Below, in pieces: positions 21,429 to 33,842 of a stretch of DNA of 40,188 nt. The notes beneath the pieces are model-generated. The model was not told where the DNA came from, made no database searches, and saw only the letters and a program-made list of their open reading frames with translations. Made by a program: the position numbers and the translations under genes. This DNA is from a virus. How positions within the stretch are numbered: the stretch's first letter is position 1; every line of letters starts with the position of its first letter. The stretch spans positions 1 through 40,188 of IMG/VR virus record IMGVR_UViG_3300037258_000847, one strand, 5' to 3'.

Positions 21429-22285
21429 GCCCCGGCGTACCTTCTGGCGCGCCGCCAGTAGCGGGCGTGGACGTACCTGCGGCGCGCGCGCCGCGCGCGC
21501 GGCTCGTCATCCGTCGCAACGACGGACGCCGGATCGACGATCCTGACGACGACAACCTTGTCGGCCACCGGCGATATCCTCGCCCCGTCGGCGTCGACGT
21601 GAAGGAAGGCGCGGCCGCCGTCCATCATCGCCAGTACGGCGCCGCGGACGAAGGCCCAGTCGTCGCGCTCGACGGCGAGGCAACCCTCCGTGACCAAGCG
21701 GCCGTTGGGGTCGGCGTGGATCTCGACGCCCTCGCGGTAGCGGTGCAACCTCGGGTCCCAGACCGTGGCGTCGTGGTTTATGGCGATGGCACCGTGCCTG
21801 GCTCCCCACCTGCCGACGTCGCGGGTGAGCGGCCAGTCGCCGTAGGGCAGGCTCCAGCCCGCCCCGCCGGAGCCGAACCTGACCCGGCGGCCACCGACGT
21901 CGAGGGTTCCCACCATCCTGGCCGGAGCCGGGGCGGCGACGAGGCCGTGAAGCTCATCGGCGAGGCCGTCGGTCAGGCCTTGGACTATTCCGACGAGAAG
22001 GCCGACGGGGGCGGGAAGCGGCGGCGGCGCCGTCTGGCGCCTCGTCGGGGACGCCGAGGCGTGCCTGCGGGTCTTGTGGCGGGAACGCGCCACGGCGCGC
22101 CTCTGAGGCGCGGCCGTCCACTCTGCGCGACGTCCAGGCTTGCCCCTCGAAACGTCCAGCGGGTAGGGCGGGATCGCGGCGACGTCAACGAAAGTCTGGC
22201 GATCCTGGACCGCCGGATGCCGGCTGGCCAATGCTGGCGTAGCCGTGACCGCCAACGCGACGGCGACGATGATTGCCTGCTTCAT
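21425..22285 (-). CDS. Secreted YkuD/L,D-transpeptidase-like protein
   Basis: Encodes 286 residues from the ATG at 22285, with GAGAGGGGAAC upstream; the 55 codons before it belong to another frame. A signal peptide (KQAIIVAVALAVTATPALAS) precedes a basic, proline-rich linker of about 80 residues. The catalytic-looking domain shows HGAIAINHD, GVEIHADPNGRLVTEGCLAV and W. The histidine in EIHA and the cysteine in TEGC are placed as in YkuD-fold enzymes, which cut or exchange peptidoglycan cross-links. The fold assignment is moderate. The C-terminus is strongly arginine-rich. It belongs to the lysis/cell-wall set of the late operon. Confidence 0.55.
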   Translation of the reverse strand: MKQAIIVAVALAVTATPALASRHPAVQDRQTFVDVAAIPPYPLDVSRGKPGRRAEWTAAPQRRAVARSRHKTRRHASASPTRRQTAPPPLPAPVGLLVGIVQGLTDGLADELHGLVAAPAPARMVGTLDVGGRRVRFGSGGAGWSLPYGDWPLTRDVGRWGARHGAIAINHDATVWDPRLHRYREGVEIHADPNGRLVTEGCLAVERDDWAFVRGAVLAMMDGGRAFLHVDADGARISPVADKVVVVRIVDPASVVATDDEPRARRARRRYVHARYWRRARRYAGA

Positions 22286-22718
22286 GTAGTTCCCCTCTCG
22301 ATGCCCAACTGTGGCCGCAGGCCGTGCTGCCTCCGGCTTCCACATGCCCGTAGTCCGAATTGCACCAGTCGCCGCCGCTGAAAAGATTATGTCGCTTGGC
22401 GATCGCCGACATCGCCGCGCGTCCAGGAAGGCGGCAACGAGCGTCAACAACGCCGCGGCGAAATTGGCATAAATCTATGGCCATCGAGCAAGAGTGTTTG
22501 TGATCTTGGGCGCAGACGCCGGGTCTGTAGCCACCCATAAATTTTATGGACGAGCCGGCAGCTTCCAGATCGCGGATCAATGCTTGGAATTGAGCGGCAT
22601 ATTTTGAGGAAACGGTGGCCTTGGCGCCGGCGGCGGACGTGATCGTTTCTGCCCTTGCGGATGCCGTGAGGACGACAGCGCAAAGCAAAGCCGCGGCGAG
22701 CGGCTTGATCGGCGTCAT
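22185..22718 (-). CDS. Secreted M15-like D,D/L,D-peptidase
   Basis: Encodes 177 residues from the ATG at 22718. A signal peptide (MTPIKPLAAALLCAVVLTAS, then ARA) is followed by an M15-type zinc peptidase core: IKFMGGYRPG, then DHKHSCSMAIDLC giving the metal ligands His and Asp, then DYGHVEAGG with the third His. This fold cleaves peptidoglycan peptides. The last about 33 residues, from 22285 down to 22185, overlap the next gene in another frame and look random, so the original stop may have been lost by a small deletion. Six cysteines suggest disulfides in the periplasm. Confidence 0.7.
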   Translation of the reverse strand: MTPIKPLAAALLCAVVLTASARAETITSAAGAKATVSSKYAAQFQALIRDLEAAGSSIKFMGGYRPGVCAQDHKHSCSMAIDLCQFRRGVVDARCRLPGRAAMSAIAKRHNLFSGGDWCNSDYGHVEAGGSTACGHSWASRGELHEAGNHRRRRVGGHGYASIGQPASGGPGSPDFR

Positions 22719-22730
22719 GATTTCAGGAGA

Positions 22731-22967
22731 TCAGCGTTTCCGATGCCGCGGCAATGGCGCCGGGGCAGGCGGTTGGTAGAAGACCGGCCGGACGAGTTCG
22801 AACGGCGACGCCACGACTTGGAACGCGCCAGTCACCATGACCGCGGTTCCGTTGGCGATGGTGAGGACGAAGGCCTCGACGGGACCGGCAGGCTGCTGAA
22901 CTGGTTGCGCCGAAGCGGCGGCGCCAAGAGAAAGCAGGACGGCGGCAGAGATCAGGAATCGTTTCAT
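22731..22967 (-). CDS. Small secreted protein
   Basis: Encodes 78 residues from the ATG at 22967 with GGGGGATTT upstream. The signal peptide (MKRFLISAAVLLSLGAAASA) ends in a good AxA site. The exported part has a hydrophobic stretch (VEAFVLTIANGTAVMVTGAF) and a basic proline-rich end. Function unknown; it is one of nine secreted proteins of the late operon. Confidence 0.6.
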   Translation of the reverse strand: MKRFLISAAVLLSLGAAASAQPVQQPAGPVEAFVLTIANGTAVMVTGAFQVVASPFELVRPVFYQPPAPAPLPRHRKR

Positions 22968-22984
22968 CGGCGAAATCCCCCGTG

Positions 22985-23017
22985 GATGGTCTGACGATTC
23001 CCGGAACTTAGACCATC
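22985..23017. repeat. Inverted repeat upstream of the small secreted gene
   Basis: GATGGTCT (22985-22992) and AGACCATC (23010-23017) form a perfect 8-bp dyad with a 17-base centre. It lies in the 90-base gap between 22967 and 23058. A second hairpin, GCCACCC (23030-23036) with GGGTGGC (23046-23052), lies beside it. Together they could end or restart transcription inside the late operon. Confidence 0.4.
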
Positions 23018-23057
23018 GCGGTTCGGGATGCCACCCCGGTCCCAAGGGTGGCTTGGA

Positions 23058-23468
23058 TCAGCGGCGCGGCCGCGCCGGCGGCCGGATGCCGCCGTTGAGG
23101 TTTTTCCAGAAATCTCGCCACGTCATGGCGTCCGGAACCGTCGGCGCTTGGACGTGGCGGACCGCCGAGAGGCTGGTGCTGGCGAAGATGCAGAAGATGA
23201 TGAGGACCGCAGAACCGCTCGGCGTGATCCCGCTGACGACGATCCCCATCGCGTTGTACATGAGGGAGATGCTGAAGAGGACGAGGACGACGCGCTGAAC
23301 CAGCCGCACCAAAGCGAAGAAACATCTGATCCCGGCCCCTTCGGTCACCGCAAAGGCCAAGAGCGGACCGATCAAAACGGCGGACAGAACCTCCATTATG
23401 ACCACGGTCGCCCTGATCTGCTCCGGGCTGAGGAAGTAGGCCACGACGTCGAACATCTCATTCTCCAT
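23058..23468 (-). CDS. Membrane protein of the lysis region
   Basis: Encodes 136 residues from the ATG at 23468; an ATG four codons later is an alternative. Three membrane segments are visible: ATVVIMEVLSAVLIGPLLAF, a second within FFALVRLVQRVVLVLFSISL, and SAVLIIFCIFASTSL. The C-terminus is basic. Its place directly after the holin-like gene (11-base overlap) suggests a holin, antiholin or pinholin partner; no family is recognised. Confidence 0.6.
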   Translation of the reverse strand: MENEMFDVVAYFLSPEQIRATVVIMEVLSAVLIGPLLAFAVTEGAGIRCFFALVRLVQRVVLVLFSISLMYNAMGIVVSGITPSGSAVLIIFCIFASTSLSAVRHVQAPTVPDAMTWRDFWKNLNGGIRPPARPRR

Positions 23469-23769
23469 CGAGCTTGCGCTCCATCGGCGACCACTTGAAT
23501 CGCGCCGCGCCCTTGATAATCGCCTGGCAGATCGGCATGCCGCCGAGGCCGATGATGAACGACGTTCCGGCGCTCGGCTTCGCCCCGACGTAGAGCGGCG
23601 CGAAAGGTCCCAAGTAAGCGGCGGCGCCGGTGCCGACGACTATCGTGCAGAAAAGCGACCACACGTTCGGCCGCGACCCGGAACTGACCAGACCGGCGAG
23701 CATGCCGCCGGTGAAGCCGGCGAAGATGTCGGTCGGGTTGACGCCGATGTGCAGGAGAAACGTTTCCAT
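23458..23769 (-). CDS. Probable holin
   Basis: Encodes 103 residues from the ATG at 23769 (METFLLHIGVNPTDIFAGFT); the codons upstream are a shadow. Hydrophobic segments FAGFTGGMLAGLV, VWSLFCTIVVGTGAAAYLGP and SFIIGLGGMPICQAI, joined by short polar turns and ending in a charged tail (RFKWSPMERKLDGE), give the layout of small phage holins. The glycine-rich GTSFIIGLGGM block is typical of one such group. It lies between the lipase and another membrane protein in the lysis region. Confidence 0.65.
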   Translation of the reverse strand: METFLLHIGVNPTDIFAGFTGGMLAGLVSSGSRPNVWSLFCTIVVGTGAAAYLGPFAPLYVGAKPSAGTSFIIGLGGMPICQAIIKGAARFKWSPMERKLDGE

Positions 23770-23809
23770 GGCCCTGTCGTTCCAACCCCTTGTGCCAGCA
23801 AGTCGCATA

Positions 23810-24472
23810 TCACGATTCTGCCGCACCTGCGGCATGTCCTGGGACAACCGCGTGCACCGCCGCCACGTAATTGGCGATGTTGTGACATTGGAAGGCGTCG
23901 ACCATCGGCGCGCCGACCGCGGTCAGGGGAACTTGCCGGAACGGGAATCCGGGAATGGTGAACGGGACGTCTGGAACCGGATCGTTCCCGAATCTGTAAG
24001 CGCACAGCGGAACCGAGGTGGCGACTTTGACGAGGCCGTCGCCACCTCCGCGAGGTGGCGCAAAGGCCCCGATCTTCACCGGCGGCAGGCCGTCCTGGAT
24101 CAACATGGCGCCGATCAGGATCGCCTCTATGGCGCCAAGGCTGTGGCCGCAGATCGCGTAGGGACCGCGCGACGCCACCAAGGCGATCCTCGTCAAAGCG
24201 CTCACTGCGGCGGCGTAAAATCCGGCGTGGATGAAGCCGAGAGAGACGTTGCTGAGGCCCTGCTGGTCGGCGACCGTGACGCTGAAGAGGTCGAGCATCC
24301 AGCCGAGCCTGTTGTGCGTGCCCTCAACGGCGATGATGTTGAGGCCGTCGGCGCGCGTGGTGAGGAACACGCGCATGGCTTGGTTGATGTCGGCGATGTA
24401 CGGCACCGCGGCCGGCGCGTAGGTCGCGGCGCAAAGATCAACCAGCTCCGCGTCCGTCGGAAGCGCGAGCAT
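23810..24472 (-). CDS. Class 3 lipase-like hydrolase
   Basis: Encodes 220 residues from the start at 24472. It has the alpha/beta-hydrolase layout of lipase class 3: IIAVEGTHN, LGFIHAGFYAAAVSAL, the nucleophile elbow CGHSLGA with S111, a GAFAPPRGG strand, RFGNDPVPDVP with the probable catalytic aspartate (D164 or D168), and CHNIANYV with H197. It has no signal peptide, so release would depend on the holin. A lipase in a phage lysis region recalls LysB of mycobacteriophages in logic, but the sequence type is different. Target lipids are unknown; outer-membrane lipids are a guess. Confidence 0.85.
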   Translation of the reverse strand: MLALPTDAELVDLCAATYAPAAVPYIADINQAMRVFLTTRADGLNIIAVEGTHNRLGWMLDLFSVTVADQQGLSNVSLGFIHAGFYAAAVSALTRIALVASRGPYAICGHSLGAIEAILIGAMLIQDGLPPVKIGAFAPPRGGGDGLVKVATSVPLCAYRFGNDPVPDVPFTIPGFPFRQVPLTAVGAPMVDAFQCHNIANYVAAVHAVVPGHAAGAAES

Positions 24473-24496
24473 CCGGCCCTCCGCGCGGTTCGCTGA

Positions 24497-25027
24497 TTAC
24501 TTCGGCAGCAGCGTGAGCAGGCCGCCGAGCGACGGCAGCGCCGGAAGGGCTAGGCCGCCGGTGCCGGCGACGAGGCCGGTCGTGATGCCGAGCTGGAGCA
24601 GGACGGCGTTCACGTTCATCAGCAACGGAGCGCAGGCGATGTTGAGGCCGGCCAGCGGCCCGTTCGACGACTGCAGGTTGGAGATGAAGGACTGCACGTC
24701 GCGCGCCTTCTGCAGGGCTTGGAAGAGGCCGGGGCCGGCGGGAAGCGGGCTGTTGATCGGGCTCTGCACCAGGGCGAGGAGCGCGGTGTAGCACTGCGCC
24801 GACGTCACGTCGGGGGGCGTCTGCGCGTTGGCGTCGGCGAGCGCAGCCGTGAGGTCAGCGGCGCTGAACTGCTGCAGTAGCAGGAGAGGGTTCTGCTGCA
24901 CCTGCGTCGAGGTGAGCTTTCCGGACGACGACGATGCCGCCGACTTCTTGGCGGTCTCCGCCGAGGCGGGAAGCGAGAGTACGAGCACGGCGAGCAGGAT
25001 GCTGGCCGTCTTGGCGAGGTTGGTCAT
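24497..25027 (-). CDS. Secreted hypothetical protein
   Basis: Encodes 176 residues from the ATG at 25027 with AAGGAG upstream; the arginine/proline-rich codons before it are a shadow. The signal peptide (TASILLAVLVLSLPASAE) is followed by a serine-rich stretch and a helical domain (PLLLLQQFSAADLTAALADA), with two cysteines (AQCYTAL and IACAPL). The C-terminus is rich in Gly, Leu and Pro. Not recognised; it is part of the secreted run. Confidence 0.6.
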   Translation of the reverse strand: MTNLAKTASILLAVLVLSLPASAETAKKSAASSSSGKLTSTQVQQNPLLLLQQFSAADLTAALADANAQTPPDVTSAQCYTALLALVQSPINSPLPAGPGLFQALQKARDVQSFISNLQSSNGPLAGLNIACAPLLMNVNAVLLQLGITTGLVAGTGGLALPALPSLGGLLTLLPK

Positions 25028-25061
25028 GTTGGGGCGACTCCTTGTTGCTCTCTGGAACGGG

Positions 25062-25682
25062 TCAGACTTTGGCGGCGGCCGGCGCGGCCGGGGCTGGAAT
25101 CTCGGCCGGGGCGGCGGCGATGGCCGCGCTGACAACCGGCGCGGCGGCGGGAACCTGCGGGATCATGTCAACGATGCGGTCGGCGAGGGACTGCGGCGTG
25201 ATCCCGAAATGCTTGACGGCGTCGCCGGCGGCGTTGCTGGCCGCGCTGACCGCGGCGGCCAATGCCTCGTTGTTGACCGTGATGGTCTTTCCCCGGACGG
25301 AGACGGCGCCGTCGGCGACGAGCGACGCCGCCTGGCGCTGGGCCGCGGCGGTGATCGAGGCGCGGTGCTCGGCATCGATGTTGATGTTGAGCTTGGTTTT
25401 CAGCAGCCAGAAGATCCAGCCGAAGGCCGTCCCGACCAGCGCCTCGACGGCGGCGGTGACGTACGGCGCCAGCAGTTGCCCGAAGATCTGGCCGATGGCG
25501 ATCGTGTTGTCGTCGGCCGGCCTGACGATCACCGGCGAGCCGATCGGAGTGACGCCGGGAACGGCCTGCACCGTGAGTTCAGGCGACGGCGCGACGTTGT
25601 GCGATGCCTCGGCAAACTGCGCCGAAGCCGGTCCGACAAGGGCCGCGGCCAAGACGATCCCGATGACGACTTTCCTGATCAT
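25062..25682 (-). CDS. Secreted or membrane-associated hypothetical protein
   Basis: Encodes 206 residues from the ATG at 25682; the upstream codons are a shadow. The signal peptide (IRKVVIGIVLAAALVGPASA) is followed by a further hydrophobic stretch (AAVEALVGTAFGWIFWLL) that may cross or enter the membrane. A helical region (ADRIVDMIPQ) and an Ala/Pro-rich tail end the protein. Function unknown. It lies three bases after the next upstream gene. Confidence 0.6.
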   Translation of the reverse strand: MIRKVVIGIVLAAALVGPASAQFAEASHNVAPSPELTVQAVPGVTPIGSPVIVRPADDNTIAIGQIFGQLLAPYVTAAVEALVGTAFGWIFWLLKTKLNINIDAEHRASITAAAQRQAASLVADGAVSVRGKTITVNNEALAAAVSAASNAAGDAVKHFGITPQSLADRIVDMIPQVPAAAPVVSAAIAAAPAEIPAPAAPAAAKV

Positions 25683-25684
25683 GA

Positions 25685-25903
25685 TCAGCTTCCCTGAGAC
25701 CGGTGCCTGGCCATCACGGCCGCGCACTCCTTGCTGATGACCTTGCGGTGGGCGTCGAGGCAGGCGCGGACTGCGGAAGGGCCGCCGCCGATCGCCGCCG
25801 AGCAGTAGTTGAGGGCGTCGCCGGTGCAGGCGCCGATCTCGGCGTCGGTGGCAGAGACCGCGGCCAACATCGCGGCGGCGATTATGATGCCCCGGAGATT
25901 CAC
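25685..25903 (-). CDS. Small secreted cysteine-rich protein
   Basis: Encodes 72 residues from the GTG at 25903 (GTGA overlap). The signal peptide (NLRGIIIAAAMLAAVSATDA) is followed by a compact four-cysteine domain: GACTGDALNYC, then VRACLDAHRKVISKECAAVM. The C-x8-C ... C-x12-C spacing, each within a helix, suggests a small disulfide-bonded helical hairpin. Function unknown. Confidence 0.65.
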   Translation of the reverse strand: MNLRGIIIAAAMLAAVSATDAEIGACTGDALNYCSAAIGGGPSAVRACLDAHRKVISKECAAVMARHRSQGS

Positions 25904-26340: not shown

Positions 26341-26427
26341 TCAGTGGCCCAGCAGGATGATGCCGGAACCCTGCATGGCGGCGGCGATCAGGATGAGCGA
26401 GATGCGGAATGCCAGAATCGCGGTCAC
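26341..26427 (-). CDS. 28-aa membrane peptide after the endolysin
   Basis: A GTG at 26427 overlaps the lysin stop (GTGA). The peptide (TAILAFRISLILIAAAMQGS plus a short end) is almost wholly one membrane segment. Its coupling to the lysin and its size recall tiny lysis-helper peptides, but it could also be a leader for the next gene. Confidence 0.4.
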   Translation of the reverse strand: MTAILAFRISLILIAAAMQGSGIILLGH

Positions 26428-27188
26428 GCGACGGGCGCCGGAGACACGCATCCCCATTTTTCAGCCAATTTGGCAACGGTCATCGCGCCGACCACGGTGG
26501 AGTTGTCGCAGTACCCGGAAATGCCGGGTATCGTGTGAGGCCCGGGACCGCTGTTGTCGCCGTCGTCTTGCCAGTATTCTGGACCGCTTTCGGCCCACGG
26601 CAGCGGTATCTCGTTGGCCCGGTAGGTGCCGTACTGGCAGGCCCAAAGCCGGCGGGTGGCAAAACTGTCGACGACGGCGGAGGATGCCCTCTGCAGCTGC
26701 TCGCGCGGGGCGTCGCCGCCGTAGACCTTGATCGGAAACTGGCACCAGTCCTCGACGGCCTTGCAGAAATCGTCGGCCCACAAGGCCGGCTGCTGATAGC
26801 CGGAGGCGCCGATGTCCTCCCAGTCAAGGCAGAGATCGTCGCCGGCCTGGAAGCCGGCGGCCTTGACCGCGGCGATGAAGTTGGCGGCCTCCGCGGCGGC
26901 GCCGGCGGTTCCGTTAAAATGGTAGAAGCCGAAGCGCGGCGGCAGCAACAACGCGGCGCCGTCGACGTCGGTGACCGAGATCTGGCCGCCGGTCATCCAG
27001 GCCGCGCGTCTGGCCGCGCAACGGGGATCCCAGCCCGTCTTCAGCGGGCCTTGGCTGGCCTTGTGATCGAGGAAGGCGATGCCTTGCGCCTTGACCTGCG
27101 CGAAGCCGGCGAGCGGCCGGCCCGGCACATCAATGACGTCGTCGCCATGAAATATGTCGATGCAGTACGGGCGGTTGGTCATCGGCAT
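26424..27188 (-). CDS. GH25-like endolysin
   Basis: Encodes 254 residues from the ATG at 27188 (TGATG with the previous stop); ATG 27182 is an alternative. GH25 features are in order: CIDIFHGDD with D11, IAFLDHKASQG, PRFGFYHFN, and LCLDWED with D122 and E124 as the catalytic pair, then IKVYGG and a WACQYGTYRA strand. There is no signal peptide, so it should need a holin. GH25 muramidases cut the sugar backbone of peptidoglycan. It lies after the fibre genes, the usual place for a phage endolysin. Confidence 0.85.
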   Translation of the reverse strand: MPMTNRPYCIDIFHGDDVIDVPGRPLAGFAQVKAQGIAFLDHKASQGPLKTGWDPRCAARRAAWMTGGQISVTDVDGAALLLPPRFGFYHFNGTAGAAAEAANFIAAVKAAGFQAGDDLCLDWEDIGASGYQQPALWADDFCKAVEDWCQFPIKVYGGDAPREQLQRASSAVVDSFATRRLWACQYGTYRANEIPLPWAESGPEYWQDDGDNSGPGPHTIPGISGYCDNSTVVGAMTVAKLAEKWGCVSPAPVA

Positions 27189-28675
27189 CACCCGCCGTGA
27201 CAGTGGTAGGCAAACGACGACGCCCCGGCGGCGTGCGTGATGCCCAACGCAGACGTGCTCGTGGTGTAAACTACCGAGGCGGGGGCCGCGACGCCGCCGG
27301 CGCCGTAAATGACCGTGCACACCGGGGCGCTGTCAAACGGCCAACCGAACGCGATGACGATCCCGGTCGAACCCGCTCCTTCGGTGACCATGCCGTCGAA
27401 GTCGTTGCCGGTGATGGTGGGGGAGGTGCCGCCGCCGGTGTTGATCGACGTGCCGACGTGGGTTGATCCGTTGAAGCTCCCGTCGCCGATGAGCGTCCCG
27501 TTCGTGGACCCCGGAAAGAATCCCGGACCTTGGACCAGGGTCTGCATCATGCCGCCGCTGCTGACCTGCCACTGCGGCCCGGTCACCGTGTGGCCGTTGA
27601 GCGCGAACGGGGAGGCGGAGTACGTCGTGAAGGTGAGGTCGCCCAGCTCCTCCGCGTCGGCGAAGGCCTGGCTGTACGACAGGTTGTTGATGATGTTGCC
27701 GACCGTTCCACCTCCGGTGGCGGCCCGGAAGTTGCCGTGGTGGCTGGCCTGCATGTGGCTCGAGCAGTTGGTCGACGCCGTGATGGTGTAGGGCGCGACG
27801 ATCTGGACGTATCCGAAGCGCGAAGCATACATCTGCACGCCGGAACTCGCCGACGAGCATGCCCCGAAAACGACGTTGCCGACGGCGGCATAGGTGAAGA
27901 CGTCGGTCGACGCGATCTCCAGGGCGCAGTTCTGCACTTGAAGGTTTTCGACCAGCATCTGACCGTATCCCAAGGCCTCGAAGCAAGCCGTGCCGCCGCC
28001 GCCGTCGACGACGACGTTGCTCGGCGTTCCGGAATCGCCGTTTATGGTGATCAGAATCGGCCGCCCCGGACTCTGACCGGTGACGGTGTTGGTGCTGGTG
28101 CTGTAGGTGCCGTCGGCCACGGAGAGGGTGACGGCGGAGGCCGTGGTCATCGCGTAGGCGTTGGTGATCCCCTGCCCGATCGACTTGCAGGCGCTGGCCC
28201 CGGTGCCGGTGCCGCACGACGTGCTGTCGGTGCCGGCGCCGTTGTCGACGTCGATCGTCGGCGCATTGGAGAGGGCGCCCTTGGTGATGATCCAGTTCGT
28301 GCCGTTCGACGTGATCTCCTCGGTCTGGCCGGGCAGGAGCACGTTCGGGTTGGTGCCGGTGAGGAGTCCGGTGATCGCCATTATCTTCGCGAACGAGGTG
28401 TCGGTGTTCGTGATCTTGACGACGTAGTTGCCGCCGCCGCTGCAGGTGTACCCGCTCGCCGCCGTCGCCGTGATCGCGTAGACCGCGCCGCCGCCAGCCA
28501 TGAGATGGATGCCGCAGTCGTCGTTGCTGCTCTGGCCGACGGTGTAGGCCGAGGTGACGGTGCGCTGCGTGTCGGTGACCGACACCGTGCAGTTGACCGT
28601 GGCGCATTGTGCCGACGCCGGACCGACGGCCCCCATCGAGACGAACAGCGCGACCAACCAACCGAGAATCATCAT
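27188..28675 (-). CDS. Fibre-position beta-helix protein with signal peptide
   Basis: Encodes 495 residues from the ATG at 28675. The N-terminus (MILGWLVALFVSMGAVGPAS, then AQ) is a Sec signal peptide. About 140 residues rich in Thr, Ser and Gly precede a right-handed beta-helix-like region (VTLSVADGTYS, RPILITINGDSG, GYGQMLVENLQVQNCALEI). A small C-terminal beta domain (SAPVCTVIYGAGGV) suggests a trimer tip. It has more than a dozen cysteines, several in close pairs (CATVNC, SCGTGTGASAC). Position says tail fibre or receptor-binding protein; the signal peptide and cysteines say exported protein. Confidence 0.65.
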   Translation of the reverse strand: MMILGWLVALFVSMGAVGPASAQCATVNCTVSVTDTQRTVTSAYTVGQSSNDDCGIHLMAGGGAVYAITATAASGYTCSGGGNYVVKITNTDTSFAKIMAITGLLTGTNPNVLLPGQTEEITSNGTNWIITKGALSNAPTIDVDNGAGTDSTSCGTGTGASACKSIGQGITNAYAMTTASAVTLSVADGTYSTSTNTVTGQSPGRPILITINGDSGTPSNVVVDGGGGTACFEALGYGQMLVENLQVQNCALEIASTDVFTYAAVGNVVFGACSSASSGVQMYASRFGYVQIVAPYTITASTNCSSHMQASHHGNFRAATGGGTVGNIINNLSYSQAFADAEELGDLTFTTYSASPFALNGHTVTGPQWQVSSGGMMQTLVQGPGFFPGSTNGTLIGDGSFNGSTHVGTSINTGGGTSPTITGNDFDGMVTEGAGSTGIVIAFGWPFDSAPVCTVIYGAGGVAAPASVVYTTSTSALGITHAAGASSFAYHCHGG

Positions 28676-28688
28676 GGCCTTCTATACC

Positions 28689-30011
28689 TCAGTTCGCGTG
28701 AAGTTGTGCGGTACCTTGGACGGAGACCGCCGTGAACGTGCCCGCCGCCACGGCCCACGCCACGTAGTCGCCGGCGGTGATCGACGCGCTGCTGACCGTT
28801 CCGTCGGCCACGGTCCCGCTGGTCGTGATCGTCGCCGTCCCGATCGTCGTCGGCGCCGAGCACGTCGTGCTGACGCCGCACTCGTAGAGCGTGATCGTGG
28901 CCGTCGTGCCGGTGAACGACAGCGCGGAGAACTCGATGTTGTCGACGGTCGACGCCTTGGAGACTTTGTAGAACCCGGCTTTGCCGCTCATCGTTGTCGT
29001 GAGCACGGCCGGGAAGTCGATGAAGGTGACCGCGTTGGAGTTCAGGTTCGATCCGGAGATCGCCAGCCCGGTTCCCGCGGCGGTGTAGGCTGCCGTTCCC
29101 AGCGCGGCGGTTCCGCAGTCGACACCGATGGCAGCGCCGACGACCGGAACTCCGGCGCCGCACGGATAAGTCTGCGGGCTTGTTGTCAGCACGCGGATGG
29201 CGACGCCGGCGATGATGCCGGAGGAGCCGCCGGAGACGAGACGGACGGCGACGCCGGCGATGATGCCGGAGGAGCCGCCGGAGACGAGACGGACGCCGTT
29301 GCCGGCCCTGATCCCGGCCGGAAGGATCGGCGCCAAGACCGCTTGGTATGTCACCCCGCCGATCTGGTCGAACTGGCCCGACGACGTGTTCCAGATGGCG
29401 CCGCCGTTCGGTGAGTTCGGGGCGACGCCGACGCCGATGTTCAGGCCGGCCCATTGGGCCGTCGACGGTGCCGTGGCCTGCGGCGCCGTCCATTGGTTGG
29501 CATGGTCGACGTTGATGCCGACCGTCACGTTGTTGGACGCCGCCGAGACCGTGATCGACCCGTCGGCGTTGGCGACGCTGCGCACGGGAAACGGCTGGCA
29601 GGCCAGCATGGCGCTGTTGTTGGCGTACAGGGCGAAGCCCGCCGCGCATCCGGCTATGGGATCGCCAACCGCCAGGGACAGGTTGCCGGTGGCGATGATG
29701 ACGCCGCCGACGCAGATCGTGGTCGTGCCGTCGCAGCGCGCCGCGCCCAGCGTGGTGTTCGTCGCCGCGTTGATGCCCCAATAATACTGGTTGCCCACCC
29801 CGGTGATGGTGATCGGGGCGACGCCGACAATGTTGGCGGGGTTGATCGGCACGAAGCCGGAGTTGTCCAGCTTCTGCTGGAAGCAGAACTGCCACTGCCC
29901 CGGCGTGGGCACGGCACCGTAGGCGATGTATTGGCAGCCGGACTGCGCCGCCGCCGAACTTGCCCACAAGCCGGCGACGAAGCAGAGCGCGGCGGCGATC
30001 TTTTTCATCAT
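28689..30011 (-). CDS. Fibre-position protein with signal peptide and internal repeat
   Basis: Encodes 440 residues from the ATG at 30011 (ATGA overlap); codons before it are a shadow. The signal peptide (MKKIAAALCFVAGLWASSAA, then AQ) is followed by GCQYIAYGAVPTPGQWQFCF. A middle domain contains TVSAASNNVTVGINVDHANQ and GLNIGVGVAPNSP. Two exact copies of the unit VRLVSGGSSGIIAGVA follow, coded by the 48-bp repeat. The C-terminal domain holds CGVSTTCSAP. Many cysteines come in pairs. Beta-rich, glycine-rich sequence suits a fibre or adhesin. Confidence 0.6.
   Translation of the reverse strand: MMKKIAAALCFVAGLWASSAAAQSGCQYIAYGAVPTPGQWQFCFQQKLDNSGFVPINPANIVGVAPITITGVGNQYYWGINAATNTTLGAARCDGTTTICVGGVIIATGNLSLAVGDPIAGCAAGFALYANNSAMLACQPFPVRSVANADGSITVSAASNNVTVGINVDHANQWTAPQATAPSTAQWAGLNIGVGVAPNSPNGGAIWNTSSGQFDQIGGVTYQAVLAPILPAGIRAGNGVRLVSGGSSGIIAGVAVRLVSGGSSGIIAGVAIRVLTTSPQTYPCGAGVPVVGAAIGVDCGTAALGTAAYTAAGTGLAISGSNLNSNAVTFIDFPAVLTTTMSGKAGFYKVSKASTVDNIEFSALSFTGTTATITLYECGVSTTCSAPTTIGTATITTSGTVADGTVSSASITAGDYVAWAVAAGTFTAVSVQGTAQLHAN
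29199..29294. repeat. Perfect 48-bp tandem duplication inside the fibre-position gene
   Basis: Bases 29199-29246 and 29247-29294 are identical. The unit codes for 16 residues and keeps the reading frame. Perfect identity means a recent duplication or active slippage. Confidence 0.95.
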
Positions 30012-31279
30012 CACAAAACCCACTCGAAGACCGCGACGCCTTGGGCGCCGGCACCGCCGGTCGCGCCGGCGCCGCCGCCAGAACCGTACGCCTGGCCCGC
30101 CCTCGCGCCGGTGCCGGACGACGCTCCGCCACCGCCCCAGAACGAGGCGCCTCCCTGACCTTGGGCCGTGCTGGACGACCCCGTGCTGCCGTCGCCGCCA
30201 GCGATGCGAAGGTCGCAGTTCGAGCTGGCCGTGCCGCCGGCGCCGTCCGTGGCGGTCGTCGTGCCGCCGCCAGGCCCGGCGGTCCACGTGGTGGGGCCGT
30301 CAGAAAAAGAACTCGCCGAACCGGTGGCGGTCGCCGCAGGGCCGGGGCCGATGAATCCGGAAAGGTTGACGCTTGGGCCGATCCCGGAGAACGTTGCCGT
30401 GCACGTGGCTCCGGCCCCGCCTCCGCCCCCGGTGCTGATGTTGGCACCTCCGCCGCCTGGGCCGGTGAGGGTCATCTTGTAGGCCGTCGCCGTCGTGCTG
30501 TTCGACGGCGTCGTGAACGTGAACGATCCCGTGGCCGTGATGGACGCCGTGTTGAACTGCGGAACGGGGATCGTGGGCGGGTTGGAGGCCGCCGCGGTGA
30601 CCCGGCCGTCGGCCGCGACGGTGATGTTCGCGTTGACGTAGCTCCCCGCGCCGACACCGCTGGCCGCGATGGTCGCGTTGGGCAACGTTCCCGCCAAGGA
30701 GCCGCCGAGGGTTCCGACGTTGGCCGCGGCAACGCCGGGGGCCATGCCGGGATTCGGCAGGTTTCCGGTCAGCACGCCGCCGACGGCCGGCGTGCAGGTG
30801 TTGATCCAGTTCGCCCCGCCGGTGTCTGGATCGCTGGTGTTGCCGTCGACGGTTGAAATCCAGACGCAGCCCGGGGTGGAGGCATTGCCCAGCATGGCCC
30901 ACGCCGGATAGCCGCCGATCGCCGTCGAATAGCTGGGATCGTAGAGAACCTGCGCGCCGGCGCCCTGCCACCGCGTCCACTGCGAGAGTTGGCAGAGGAC
31001 GCCGTTGAAGTCCTGCCCGGAGGGCGGCACGCCGCCGACGTTCGGCGGCAGGAAGGTGACCGGCGGGAACCCGTCGCTCCAGGAGGCGCGCCCCGGCGTG
31101 ATGGATATCTGAGACGGGATCGGCATCGGACAGGTGATGTTGGAACCCGGCGCCGTGCTGCCCCACGTCGTCGGCACCTTGGTCGGGATGGAAGAGTAGT
31201 TCATCGCGTGCGCGGTGCCGATGGCGGTCCACGCCGCCAGCAGGGCGATGATGACGTTGCGCGCTGTTCGCATTCTCAT
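30011..31279 (-). CDS. Glycine-rich fibre-position protein with signal peptide
   Basis: Encodes 422 residues from the ATG at 31279; ATG 31273 is an alternative. The signal peptide (RNVIIALLAAWTAIGTAHA) is followed by ITCPMPIPSQISITPGRASW, a domain with GQDFNGVLCQLSQWTRWQ and YPAWAMLGNASTPGCVWIS that is usual in phage tail-fibre N-terminal regions. A Gly/Ala/Ser-rich shaft (TGPGGGGANISTGGGGGAGA) ends in a polyglycine-type tip (FWGGGGASS, then FEWVL). The same fibre region in other phages normally lacks a signal peptide. Cysteines are paired here too. Confidence 0.7.
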   Translation of the reverse strand: MRMRTARNVIIALLAAWTAIGTAHAMNYSSIPTKVPTTWGSTAPGSNITCPMPIPSQISITPGRASWSDGFPPVTFLPPNVGGVPPSGQDFNGVLCQLSQWTRWQGAGAQVLYDPSYSTAIGGYPAWAMLGNASTPGCVWISTVDGNTSDPDTGGANWINTCTPAVGGVLTGNLPNPGMAPGVAAANVGTLGGSLAGTLPNATIAASGVGAGSYVNANITVAADGRVTAAASNPPTIPVPQFNTASITATGSFTFTTPSNSTTATAYKMTLTGPGGGGANISTGGGGGAGATCTATFSGIGPSVNLSGFIGPGPAATATGSASSFSDGPTTWTAGPGGGTTTATDGAGGTASSNCDLRIAGGDGSTGSSSTAQGQGGASFWGGGGASSGTGARAGQAYGSGGGAGATGGAGAQGVAVFEWVL

Positions 31280-31284
31280 CCCCG

Positions 31285-31962
31285 TTACGTCGGCGCCGAA
31301 ATCGACACTGAAACCCCAGACGTCCTCGGGAGCACTCCCGAGAGCGCTATCGCACGCTGCACCGGACTGAGCACGAAATCGAAGGTGTAGGTCATCGTCA
31401 GGTTGAGTCCGTCCGCCACATAGCACTTTCCCAACCCGGCGAACAAGTTCAGGAGGAGCTGGTTGATCGACGGGATCGACCCGTCGCAAATGTTCGCCAG
31501 CGCCTTCGCCAGCACCAGCGGGCGGTAGGCGGCGTCGGTGAGGGTGAAGTTGTTGGTGACGGTTTCGCCGGAGAAGAACGGCCCCTGCCCGAAGCCGGTG
31601 CGCTCCGTCGGATCGCCGGCCTCCTGAAATCCCAGGTAGTCGCCGCCGACGACGGGGAGGGCGAGGACGCGGCCGACGCCGACGATGCGGCCCCACACGT
31701 CGAGGCCGTACCCCACCGCAGTGTCGACGTTCCACATCGTGTCGTAGAACAGGTCCATGTTCTCGGTCTCGTCGACGTACTGCGCCATGTTGGTGCAGAG
31801 CTGGTCGATGATCGAGCTGTTGCTGTATTGACTGATCATCGTCGTCCAGACGTCGAACGGCGCGACGTCGCCGATCGGCGAGAACCCGATGACGAAGCCG
31901 CCGATGAAGTTCTGTCCCGGCGCGGCTCCCAGGTTGTACCTCGGATAGGGAGGCCCGCTCAC
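31285..31962 (-). CDS. DUF2612 baseplate/tail protein
   Basis: Encodes 225 residues from the GTG at 31962 (GTGA overlap). Motifs [43 protein letters not shown]-type YLGFQEAG, then [20 protein letters not shown] and [15 protein letters not shown] fit DUF2612, a family found after baseplate J in contractile phages. It probably links the baseplate periphery to fibres. Confidence 0.85.
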
Positions 31963-33842
31963 GAGAAGACCACGCTGATGTTGGAGGCCGCTATGGTCGG
32001 CTCCTGCGCGATGCCAACCGGAACTATGTTCTGGTTCGCCGCGACGTCGACGATACGGACGTTGGCCCGGAGCGACGCGCTCGACGCCGTCGTCGCGAGG
32101 GACGTGACGTAAACTCCGGCGCCGCCGGGCGTGCCGCTGGTCTGGCTCAGGATCGCGGTGTTGGTCGGCACCCCGGTGCCGGTGATGATGTCGCCCACGG
32201 CGATGGTTCCGGTGACCGCCGATGCCGTGAGGTTGGCGCCGGAGGCGTTGCCGGTGAACGCCGCCCCGGCCACGGTCTGCGAGGCGCTGACGGTGTAGGT
32301 GCCAACGCCGCCGGACCCGCTGACGAAGGCCGTGATCGTCGTGCCGACCATGATGTTGGACGCGGCGTCGAAGCCGGTGATCCAGTCGCCGACGGCGATG
32401 GGGCCGCCGGACGTCACCGCCGTCACCGTCAAGGTCGTGCCGGCGATCCATCCGACCACTATGTTGCCGGTGTTGGCGGAGCCGACCGTGGCGGACTTCA
32501 CCGAGGCCCAAGACCCCAGCGCGGCGACCGGCACGGTGTACTGGCTGGCGTAGATCGTGGAGGCGATGCGCGCCCGCGGCGGCACCGGAAGGTTCGTCGC
32601 CGGGTTCGACGTCATCGCGGTCGAGGTGACGTTCTGCGGCAAGCTCACCGTGTAGGTGCCGGCGTTGCCGACGCCGCTGATCAGCGACGCGATCTTCGTG
32701 CCGGGGACGATGCCGGCTCCGGAGACGGACTGGCCGACGGCGACGGTGCCCGACGCCACGGCGGTGACGGTCATCACCGTCCCGGAGATCGATGCGGTGA
32801 AAGACGCGCCGGAGTTGGCCCCGTTGAAGGCGTTGATGATGGCGTTCTGCACCTGCGTGACGGCGTCTGCCGGCACCGACGCGCTGTTCTGGATGACGAT
32901 GTTGAAGTAGACCGGCAGCGGACTCGGTATCTGAAACAAGATGTTGTAGGACGGGTACGGCGGCGAGTAGGCCGGGTTTTTGTCCTCCACCGTGACGAAG
33001 GTCCCGCCGTTCATCGCGATTCCGGGCGGCTTCTTCGACCATATCGCCTGCGCGACGGCGGCGGCGGAGCCGCCGGTGACGGCGACGTAGACAGAGTTGG
33101 GGATGATCAGAACGCCGCCGATGTCCAGCCCGTCCGGGGTCGGGTTGTCGATGACGTAGGCGTCGAGGACGCCGGGCACGCCGAGCACGGCGCCCAAGAT
33201 GGCGGTGTTGGAGTTGACGGCGTTGGCCGCGACGGACTGCTGCCGCCTCTGCTCGAACTGCTGCGACGTTTCCGTGTTCTGGCCGACGACGCCGGAGACC
33301 AGAGTGGCCGAATCCCATCCCGGGATGGACTGGTAAATCTTGACCGAGGCAGGGATTGGGATCGGCCCCGGGACCGTGCAGGCGAACGCCAGCGTTATCG
33401 TGCCGCCGCCGGCCGGGAGCGTGCCGGCCCCGGTGCACTGGTAAAGGTTACCCGAGGGATCGATGACGACGCCGTAGCTCGCCGGCCCGGCCGGGATCGC
33501 GGCGCTGGTGCCGTTGCAGTTGATCTGGAGCACCGTCGGCTCCGCCGGCAGGCGCTCGAGGAAGCTGAGCCGGGCGATGGCGTCCTGCATCCTGCCCGTC
33601 GAATAGGCCGGATCTATCTGCGTCGCGTAGTAGAGGACGTATTGGTTCGAGTCGTTGATCGCCGCCGCGGTGCTGGATGCCAATTGGCCCTGCGGGGTCG
33701 AGCCATTCCAGTTGAATGTGACGTTGAAGGCGACGTTGTAGTCCTGTTGGACGCCGGCAAGGATCGCCGGCGCCGACGGCGCCTGCGGGCCGTTGGCCCC
33801 CCACGATATGGCTGGAACTGAAGTCGTTCCGACGTTCGCCAT
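31959..33842 (-). CDS. Baseplate J-like protein with inserted beta repeats
   Basis: Encodes 627 residues from the ATG at 33842. The N-terminal part (about 1-330) has gpJ features such as [35 protein letters not shown] and [16 protein letters not shown]. Residues about 345-600 carry three divergent copies of a beta unit with SGT..VTAV.SG.IAVG and GTYTVS, typical of phage adhesin-like insertions. The C-terminus ([20 protein letters not shown]) returns to the baseplate pattern. It forms part of the baseplate wedge; the inserts may be exposed at the periphery. Confidence 0.85.

Follow-up and report, generated by a model that had tools for sequence, protein, structure and literature searches.

Tail fibres with export signals: a contractile-tail phage whose fibres may be completed in the periplasm

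Why would the tail fibres of a contractile-tail phage begin with signals for export? To our knowledge, tailed phages are held to assemble entirely in the cytoplasm. The question is raised by IMG/VR virus record IMGVR_UViG_3300037258_000847, whose 40,188 bases (the whole stretch analysed, here called the window) contain a late operon on the minus strand, running from 40,084 downward. Its genes are ordered sheath, tube-like protein, tape measure, hub, baseplate J, DUF2612, P0001, P0002, P0003, and a region for lysis that includes a GH25 lysozyme. An initial annotation had placed three signal-peptide-bearing, cysteine-rich products in the tail-fibre position, and the three open reading frames with DUF2612 (PF11041) just ahead of them were confirmed. 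The reading favoured here, with a probability of roughly 0.7, is that the phage has remade its own tail fibres, the receptor-binding proteins, as Sec substrates, which would fold in the periplasm and dock on virions at lysis.

Signal peptides were assessed with a home-made scorer based on the h-region, the charge and the -3/-1 residues, in which ten known E. coli signal peptides reach 5.3-7.2. P0001 begins with MRMRTARNVIIALLAAWTAIGTAHA followed by M and P0002 with MMKKIAAALCFVAGLWASSAAA followed by Q; both score 7.0, inside the E. coli range. P0003 begins with MMILGWLVALFVSMGAVGPASA followed by Q and scores 3.5; a hydrophobic core and A-S-A are present, and the score is low because the n-region has no Lys or Arg. 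The initial statement that each protein starts with a clear signal peptide is thus borne out for P0001 and P0002 and was slightly too strong for P0003. All 11 upstream structural genes of the window score 2.2 or less.

P0001 has recognizable relatives among known tail fibres. Residues 26-198 align to positions 1-169 of the phrog_12796 (tail fiber protein) profile (E=3.7e-26), and a tblastn search against cultured phages returned 129 records, mostly tail fibre proteins, with relatives in Bcep1, Acinetobacter, Xanthomonas and Klebsiella phages. Among the matches listed, all begin at residue 26 or later. Residue 26 is a Met directly after A-H-A, and the annotated fibre genes of Acetobacter phage phiAO1 and Klebsiella phage RCIP0114 begin at the residue aligned with it. 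The order of a DUF2612-type gene and then a fibre is the same in phiAO1, RCIP0114 and Bcep1. P0001 shares its N-domain, its DUF2612-adjacent place and a glycine-rich C-terminal part with the phrog_12796-type fibres of Bcep1/Bcep781, Xanthomonas KPhi1, Acetobacter phiAO1, Klebsiella RCIP0114 and Acinetobacter phages. However, no upstream leader was found in the five cultured examples inspected, whereas P0001 carries a signal peptide of 25 residues along with two additional pairs of cysteines. The AlphaFold model of the mature P0001 N-domain is good for residues ~60-140 only; in Foldseek, a 54-57-residue region of it matched the Acinetobacter tailspike depolymerases 24qi, 5js4 and 8opz (prob 0.95-1.00, E 0.04-0.29), with which only this short sub-domain is common. 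Neither an informative Pfam model nor any NCBIfam model was found for P0001, P0002 or P0003, and a close-relative scan seeded with P0001 alone gave no usable relative.

Further analysis covered 188 distinct homologues of the P0001 N-domain, drawn from IMG/VR, GTDB genomes and named phages. A leader was found on 28 of them, scoring 5.5-7.6 and with predicted cleavage no more than 3 residues from the conserved fibre start, while 160 are leaderless. The two groups are clearly separated by score, except that a few leaderless rows reach 4-5.4, and there the supposed cleavage site lies deep within the domain, away from its start. In the leader-bearing group, position -3 is Ala in 27/28, position -1 is Ala or Gly in 27/28, and the P-x-K N-terminal motif is retained in 27/28; the leader sequences are strongly divergent and the mature start is fixed. 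With the identical scorer and start search, none of 206 DUF2612 and none of 189 baseplate-J homologues reached 4.7 or more (0/395). The position of the start codon agrees with these results. Leaderless fibres start a median 3.5 nt past the DUF2612 stop, and in 25 of the 28 leader-bearing cases it is the leader start codon that lies close to this stop (-4 to +15 nt; 5 nt past it for P0001), the conserved fibre start being 50-86 nt away. Larger distances occur at three leader-bearing loci (L029, L009 and L127). Met occupies the conserved start in 145/160 leaderless fibres compared with 8/28 leader-bearing ones, and at least 14 of the 28 have no ATG, GTG or TTG there. In the few close pairs compared among leaders of the P0002 family (family 2), 12 synonymous and 4 nonsynonymous differences were counted. 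As judged from these sequence patterns, the fibre-1 leader is real, recurrent and translated. On the tree of fibre 1, its gain or loss needs at least nine changes.

The cysteines follow the leader. The mature chains of P0001, P0002 and P0003 contain 6, 10 and 12 cysteines, all even numbers; the initial annotation had described them as closely spaced, and the abundance stands, although "paired" fits better. The Cys content is 1.67 per 100 residues in leader-bearing fibres and 0.50 in leaderless ones (p=2e-9). Profile columns 37 and 58 hold a Cys pair in 12 leader-bearing fibres and columns 112 and 136 in 14, in each case always both or neither. Column 70 is Cys in 8, accompanied by an inserted ITC in the aligned rows checked. 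At columns 37, 58, 70, 112 and 136, Cys was found in none of the 160 leaderless fibres. Even and odd Cys totals stand at 18:3 in leader-bearing versus 43:79 in leaderless fibre 1 (p=2e-5), and at 57:7 versus 6:9 in family 2. DUF2612 and baseplate J at the same loci show no rise in Cys and no parity bias, and a general cysteine richness of these phages was therefore rejected. The closest relative of P0001 (L010, 68% identical) has neither the leader nor the four pair cysteines, though it is nested among leader-bearing fibres, and L195 shows the same joint absence. This test is indirect and evolutionary, and it suggests that the paired cysteines accompanying the leader form disulfides in an oxidising compartment.

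Leaders are also frequent in family 2, whose N-terminal consensus is QSxPxxxYGxVPTAxQWNxxFxxKQDxLGYTP (QSxCxYIxYGxVPTxxQWxxCFxxKxD in P0002 itself). A leader ending at this motif was found in 83 of 103 distinct members, a conservative count since at least two of the 20 scored as leaderless (L039 and L259) appear leader-bearing by eye. Leaderless members mostly start with Met just ahead of the motif. Where a leader-bearing fibre 1 is followed by a family-2 gene, that gene is leader-bearing in 20/20 cases, an association that is weak (p=0.044). Taking any next gene, a leader is present in 18/21 loci after a leader-bearing fibre 1 compared with 21/141 after a leaderless one. One family-2 fibre has an S74 chaperone domain. 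Residues 101-472 of the mature P0003 chain are homologous to residues 181-584 of a leader-bearing fibre 1 (L013; phmmer E=9.8e-48), and P0003 is therefore a fibre by descent. For P0002, P0003 and the family-2 N-terminus, no tblastn match was found among 50,697 cultured phage records. P0002 also contains an internal tandem repeat at 29194-29317, with 2.6 copies of a 48-bp unit (VRLVSGGSSGIIAGVA).

An independent scan seeded with DUF2612 yielded 73 distinct loci. On mechanical gene calls, a leader-bearing gene was among the first three downstream genes at 32 of the 49 loci with at least three such genes, compared with 5 of 186 upstream gene calls. Contig G010 holds a terminase, portal, head protease, major head protein, sheath, tape measure, hub, baseplate J, DUF2612 and then three fibre genes, all leader-bearing (fibre 1, a collar-fibre-like protein and a family-2 fibre). 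Because this late operon has head genes, a tailocin or an extracellular contractile injection system (eCIS) was rejected. A terminase was also found in 3 further related contigs, out of 16 searched. Both leader-bearing fibres are present in a prophage of Bradyrhizobium oropedii Pear76 (L121), and leader-bearing family-2 fibres in Rhizobium freirei PRF 81 (L104), Bradyrhizobium sp. STM 3843 (L101) and Methylobacterium sp. NEAU 140 (L098). The pattern extends beyond the Rhizobiales prophages in which a search for it had been suggested, with one case in a Sulfuritalea metagenome-assembled genome. The fibre 1 domain occurs in only 4/266 genomes of one genus, too few for host statistics.

Since the leaders are recurrent, the cleavage register is exact and the paired cysteines are tied to the leader, Sec export with A-x-A cleavage, periplasmic folding and oxidation is strongly suggested. 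We infer that the exported fibres dock on virions because the N-domain has stayed conserved, first residues included, the genes are closely linked with the baseplate gene, and the fetched loci yielded no further copy of the fibre domain lacking a leader. Under this reading, the fibres would pass the inner membrane unfolded via Sec late in infection and lose their leader; in the periplasm they would then fold into trimers and become disulfide-bonded, while fibreless particles would be built in the cytoplasm. Lysis would remove the membrane barrier so that the particles meet the fibres, and the conserved N-domain would dock on the baseplate. As a matter of speculation, the benefits could be disulfide-hardened fibres and receptor-binding proteins kept from cytoplasmic ligands and assembling tails. 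It also seems fairly probable that a widespread contractile-tail phage group has such two-compartment virions, with head and tail made in the cytoplasm, disulfide-bonded Sec-product fibres in the periplasm, and the two joined only at lysis.

Several points weigh against this reading. If a protein joins a cytoplasm-built particle, a signal peptide on it creates a topological problem, solved only by the lysis step. The evidence comes from sequence alone, with a scorer of our own making, and the P0003 leader has no Lys or Arg. Disulfides are not essential, as 6/28 leader-bearing fibres have no N-domain cysteine. The statistics on leader and cysteine are limited by relatedness among the homologues, and the well-supported branches of the tree give only two independent contrasts, mostly agreeing and too few for significance. 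Finally, the sheath gene is cut by the record end and no head genes are seen in the window.

Other explanations accept the export signals and place the proteins elsewhere. They could be tail-fibre descendants that end up on the cell surface or in the medium, outside the virion, as secreted adhesins or receptor-blocking decoys, which in lysogens or infected cells might serve adhesion, superinfection exclusion or receptor blocking on debris. Such proteins would have real export signals, and four more leader-bearing genes downstream (22185-25682) mean that exported non-virion proteins are encoded in this region as well. However, the fibre genes lie within -4 to +15 nt of a baseplate gene, their N-domain and first residues show the conservation seen in virion fibres, and an S74 chaperone and fibre-type C-termini are present. 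With no leaderless copy in the fetched loci, a phage whose fibres had become decoys would have no fibre. Moreover, start codons lie a few nt from the preceding stop, and the P0001 stop and P0002 start codons overlap by 1 nt, which argues against moron genes with their own transcription unit. Both the release outside the virion and the decoy roles are accordingly judged unlikely. The initial annotation had offered either an exported appendage or a lysogenic-conversion adhesin; the appendage is favoured on account of the retained N-domain, the close linkage to the baseplate gene and the lack of a leaderless copy in the fetched loci, and we infer that it joins the particle.

The remaining explanations concern the leader itself. 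An uncleaved hydrophobic N-terminus could stay in the virion as a docking or anchoring segment (a membrane tether or baseplate plug), as the signal-anchor-release (SAR) segments of some phage proteins, the SAR endolysins, stay uncleaved (PMC6116005). This is improbable given the A-x-A at a conserved boundary, divergent leaders ahead of a fixed mature start, the link between cysteine pairs and leader, and the docking of leaderless homologues, which have no such segment. Inefficient export could retain some copies of each fibre in the cytoplasm for use in assembly, with the rest in the periplasm, which would avoid the topological problem, and the mature-start Met in 8/28 could yield a cytoplasmic form; yet that Met is lost in most family members and the cysteine pairs point to selection for the oxidised form, so dual localisation has slightly poorer prospects still. 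The last candidate, that the fibres begin downstream and the leader arose by chance and is never translated, fits the position of P0001 Met26 exactly at the leader end and the Met found there in the same 8/28. It was rejected as very improbable, because half or more of the leader-bearing homologues have no start codon at the downstream position, chance signal peptides are absent from the control genes, and the cysteines covary with the leader. A downstream start had been named at the outset as what would overturn the signal peptides, and the leader start is instead found where leaderless relatives start.

How does fibre export compare with known systems? The pIII and pVIII proteins of filamentous Ff phages are virion proteins made with cleaved signal peptides, and the window fibres resemble them in this, with cleavage here predicted. 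However, Ff particles form within the membrane and leave by extrusion, whereas the window phage is of a headed, contractile-tail type. Late phage proteins exported via Sec ahead of lysis include Lys44 of Oenococcus phage fOg44 and gp47 of JG068 (PMC6116005, PMC3765740). Exported and SAR endolysins are thus late and Sec-directed like the window fibres, but they are lysis enzymes, and the SAR segments are uncleaved. No description of Sec-exported tailed-phage fibres was found in the openly licensed literature searched, which is no proof of absence.

Table 1. Coordinates of the fibre genes, their leaders and the adjoining baseplate genes in the window.
Feature	Position	Strand	Remarks
Baseplate J-like wedge protein	31959..33842	-	phrog_6 E=3.2e-38; scorer 1.3, no leader
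DUF2612 baseplate-associated protein, final leaderless structural gene ahead of the fibres	31285..31959	-	PF11041 E=1.7e-48; phrog_587 E=3e-59
P0001, leader-bearing tail fibre 1	30011..31279	-	Fibre N-domain residues 26 to ~165; C-terminal part glycine-rich
P0001 predicted Sec/SPase-I-type signal peptide, 25 codons, A-H-A end	31205..31279	-	Score 7.0; alternative start 6 nt downstream
P0002, leader-bearing fibre 2	28689..30011	-	Family alignment
P0002 predicted Sec/SPase-I-type signal peptide, 22 codons, A-A-A end, then QSGCQYIAYG	29946..30011	-	Score 7.0
P0003, fibre 3	27188..28675	-	Body homologous to C-terminal body of L013 leader-bearing fibre 1
P0003 putative signal peptide, 22 codons, A-S-A end	28610..28675	-	Score 3.5; n-region without Lys or Arg

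Several neighbouring features were also recorded. Baseplate J (31959-33842) contains three stretches of an ~80-residue repeated domain (phrog_21413/phrog_38233). On G010, this domain is also found in a minor head protein and another late protein (L246:5328-6308, 745-1476; L245:7748-9205), and it appears to be a mobile decoration on several structural proteins. The GH25 lysozyme (26424-27188) has 254 residues and 8 cysteines and no signal peptide. Behind the fibres and the lysozyme sit the four further small genes on the minus strand, at 25062-25682, 24497-25027, 22731-22967 and 22185-22718, with strong signal peptides (scores 6.8-7.4). The product of another small minus-strand gene, at ~25697-25903, begins much like a signal peptide (VNLRGIIIAAAMLAAVSATDA), contains four spaced cysteines and resembles a cysteine-rich repeat protein. 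The late region also encodes an esterase/lipase-like protein at 23810-24472 (phrog_21992 E=1.5e-25).

The proteins belong to a known kind, tail fibres, and it is their assembly route that is possibly new. Because leader-bearing prophages lie in named strains, export can be tested directly. If the reading is true, virion assembly would gain a step after lysis and fibres could be hardened by disulfides. Fibres could also be shared among the phages of one lysate, so that host range would partly be a property of the lysate. Moreover, annotation that discards "secreted" proteins would have overlooked receptor-binding proteins.

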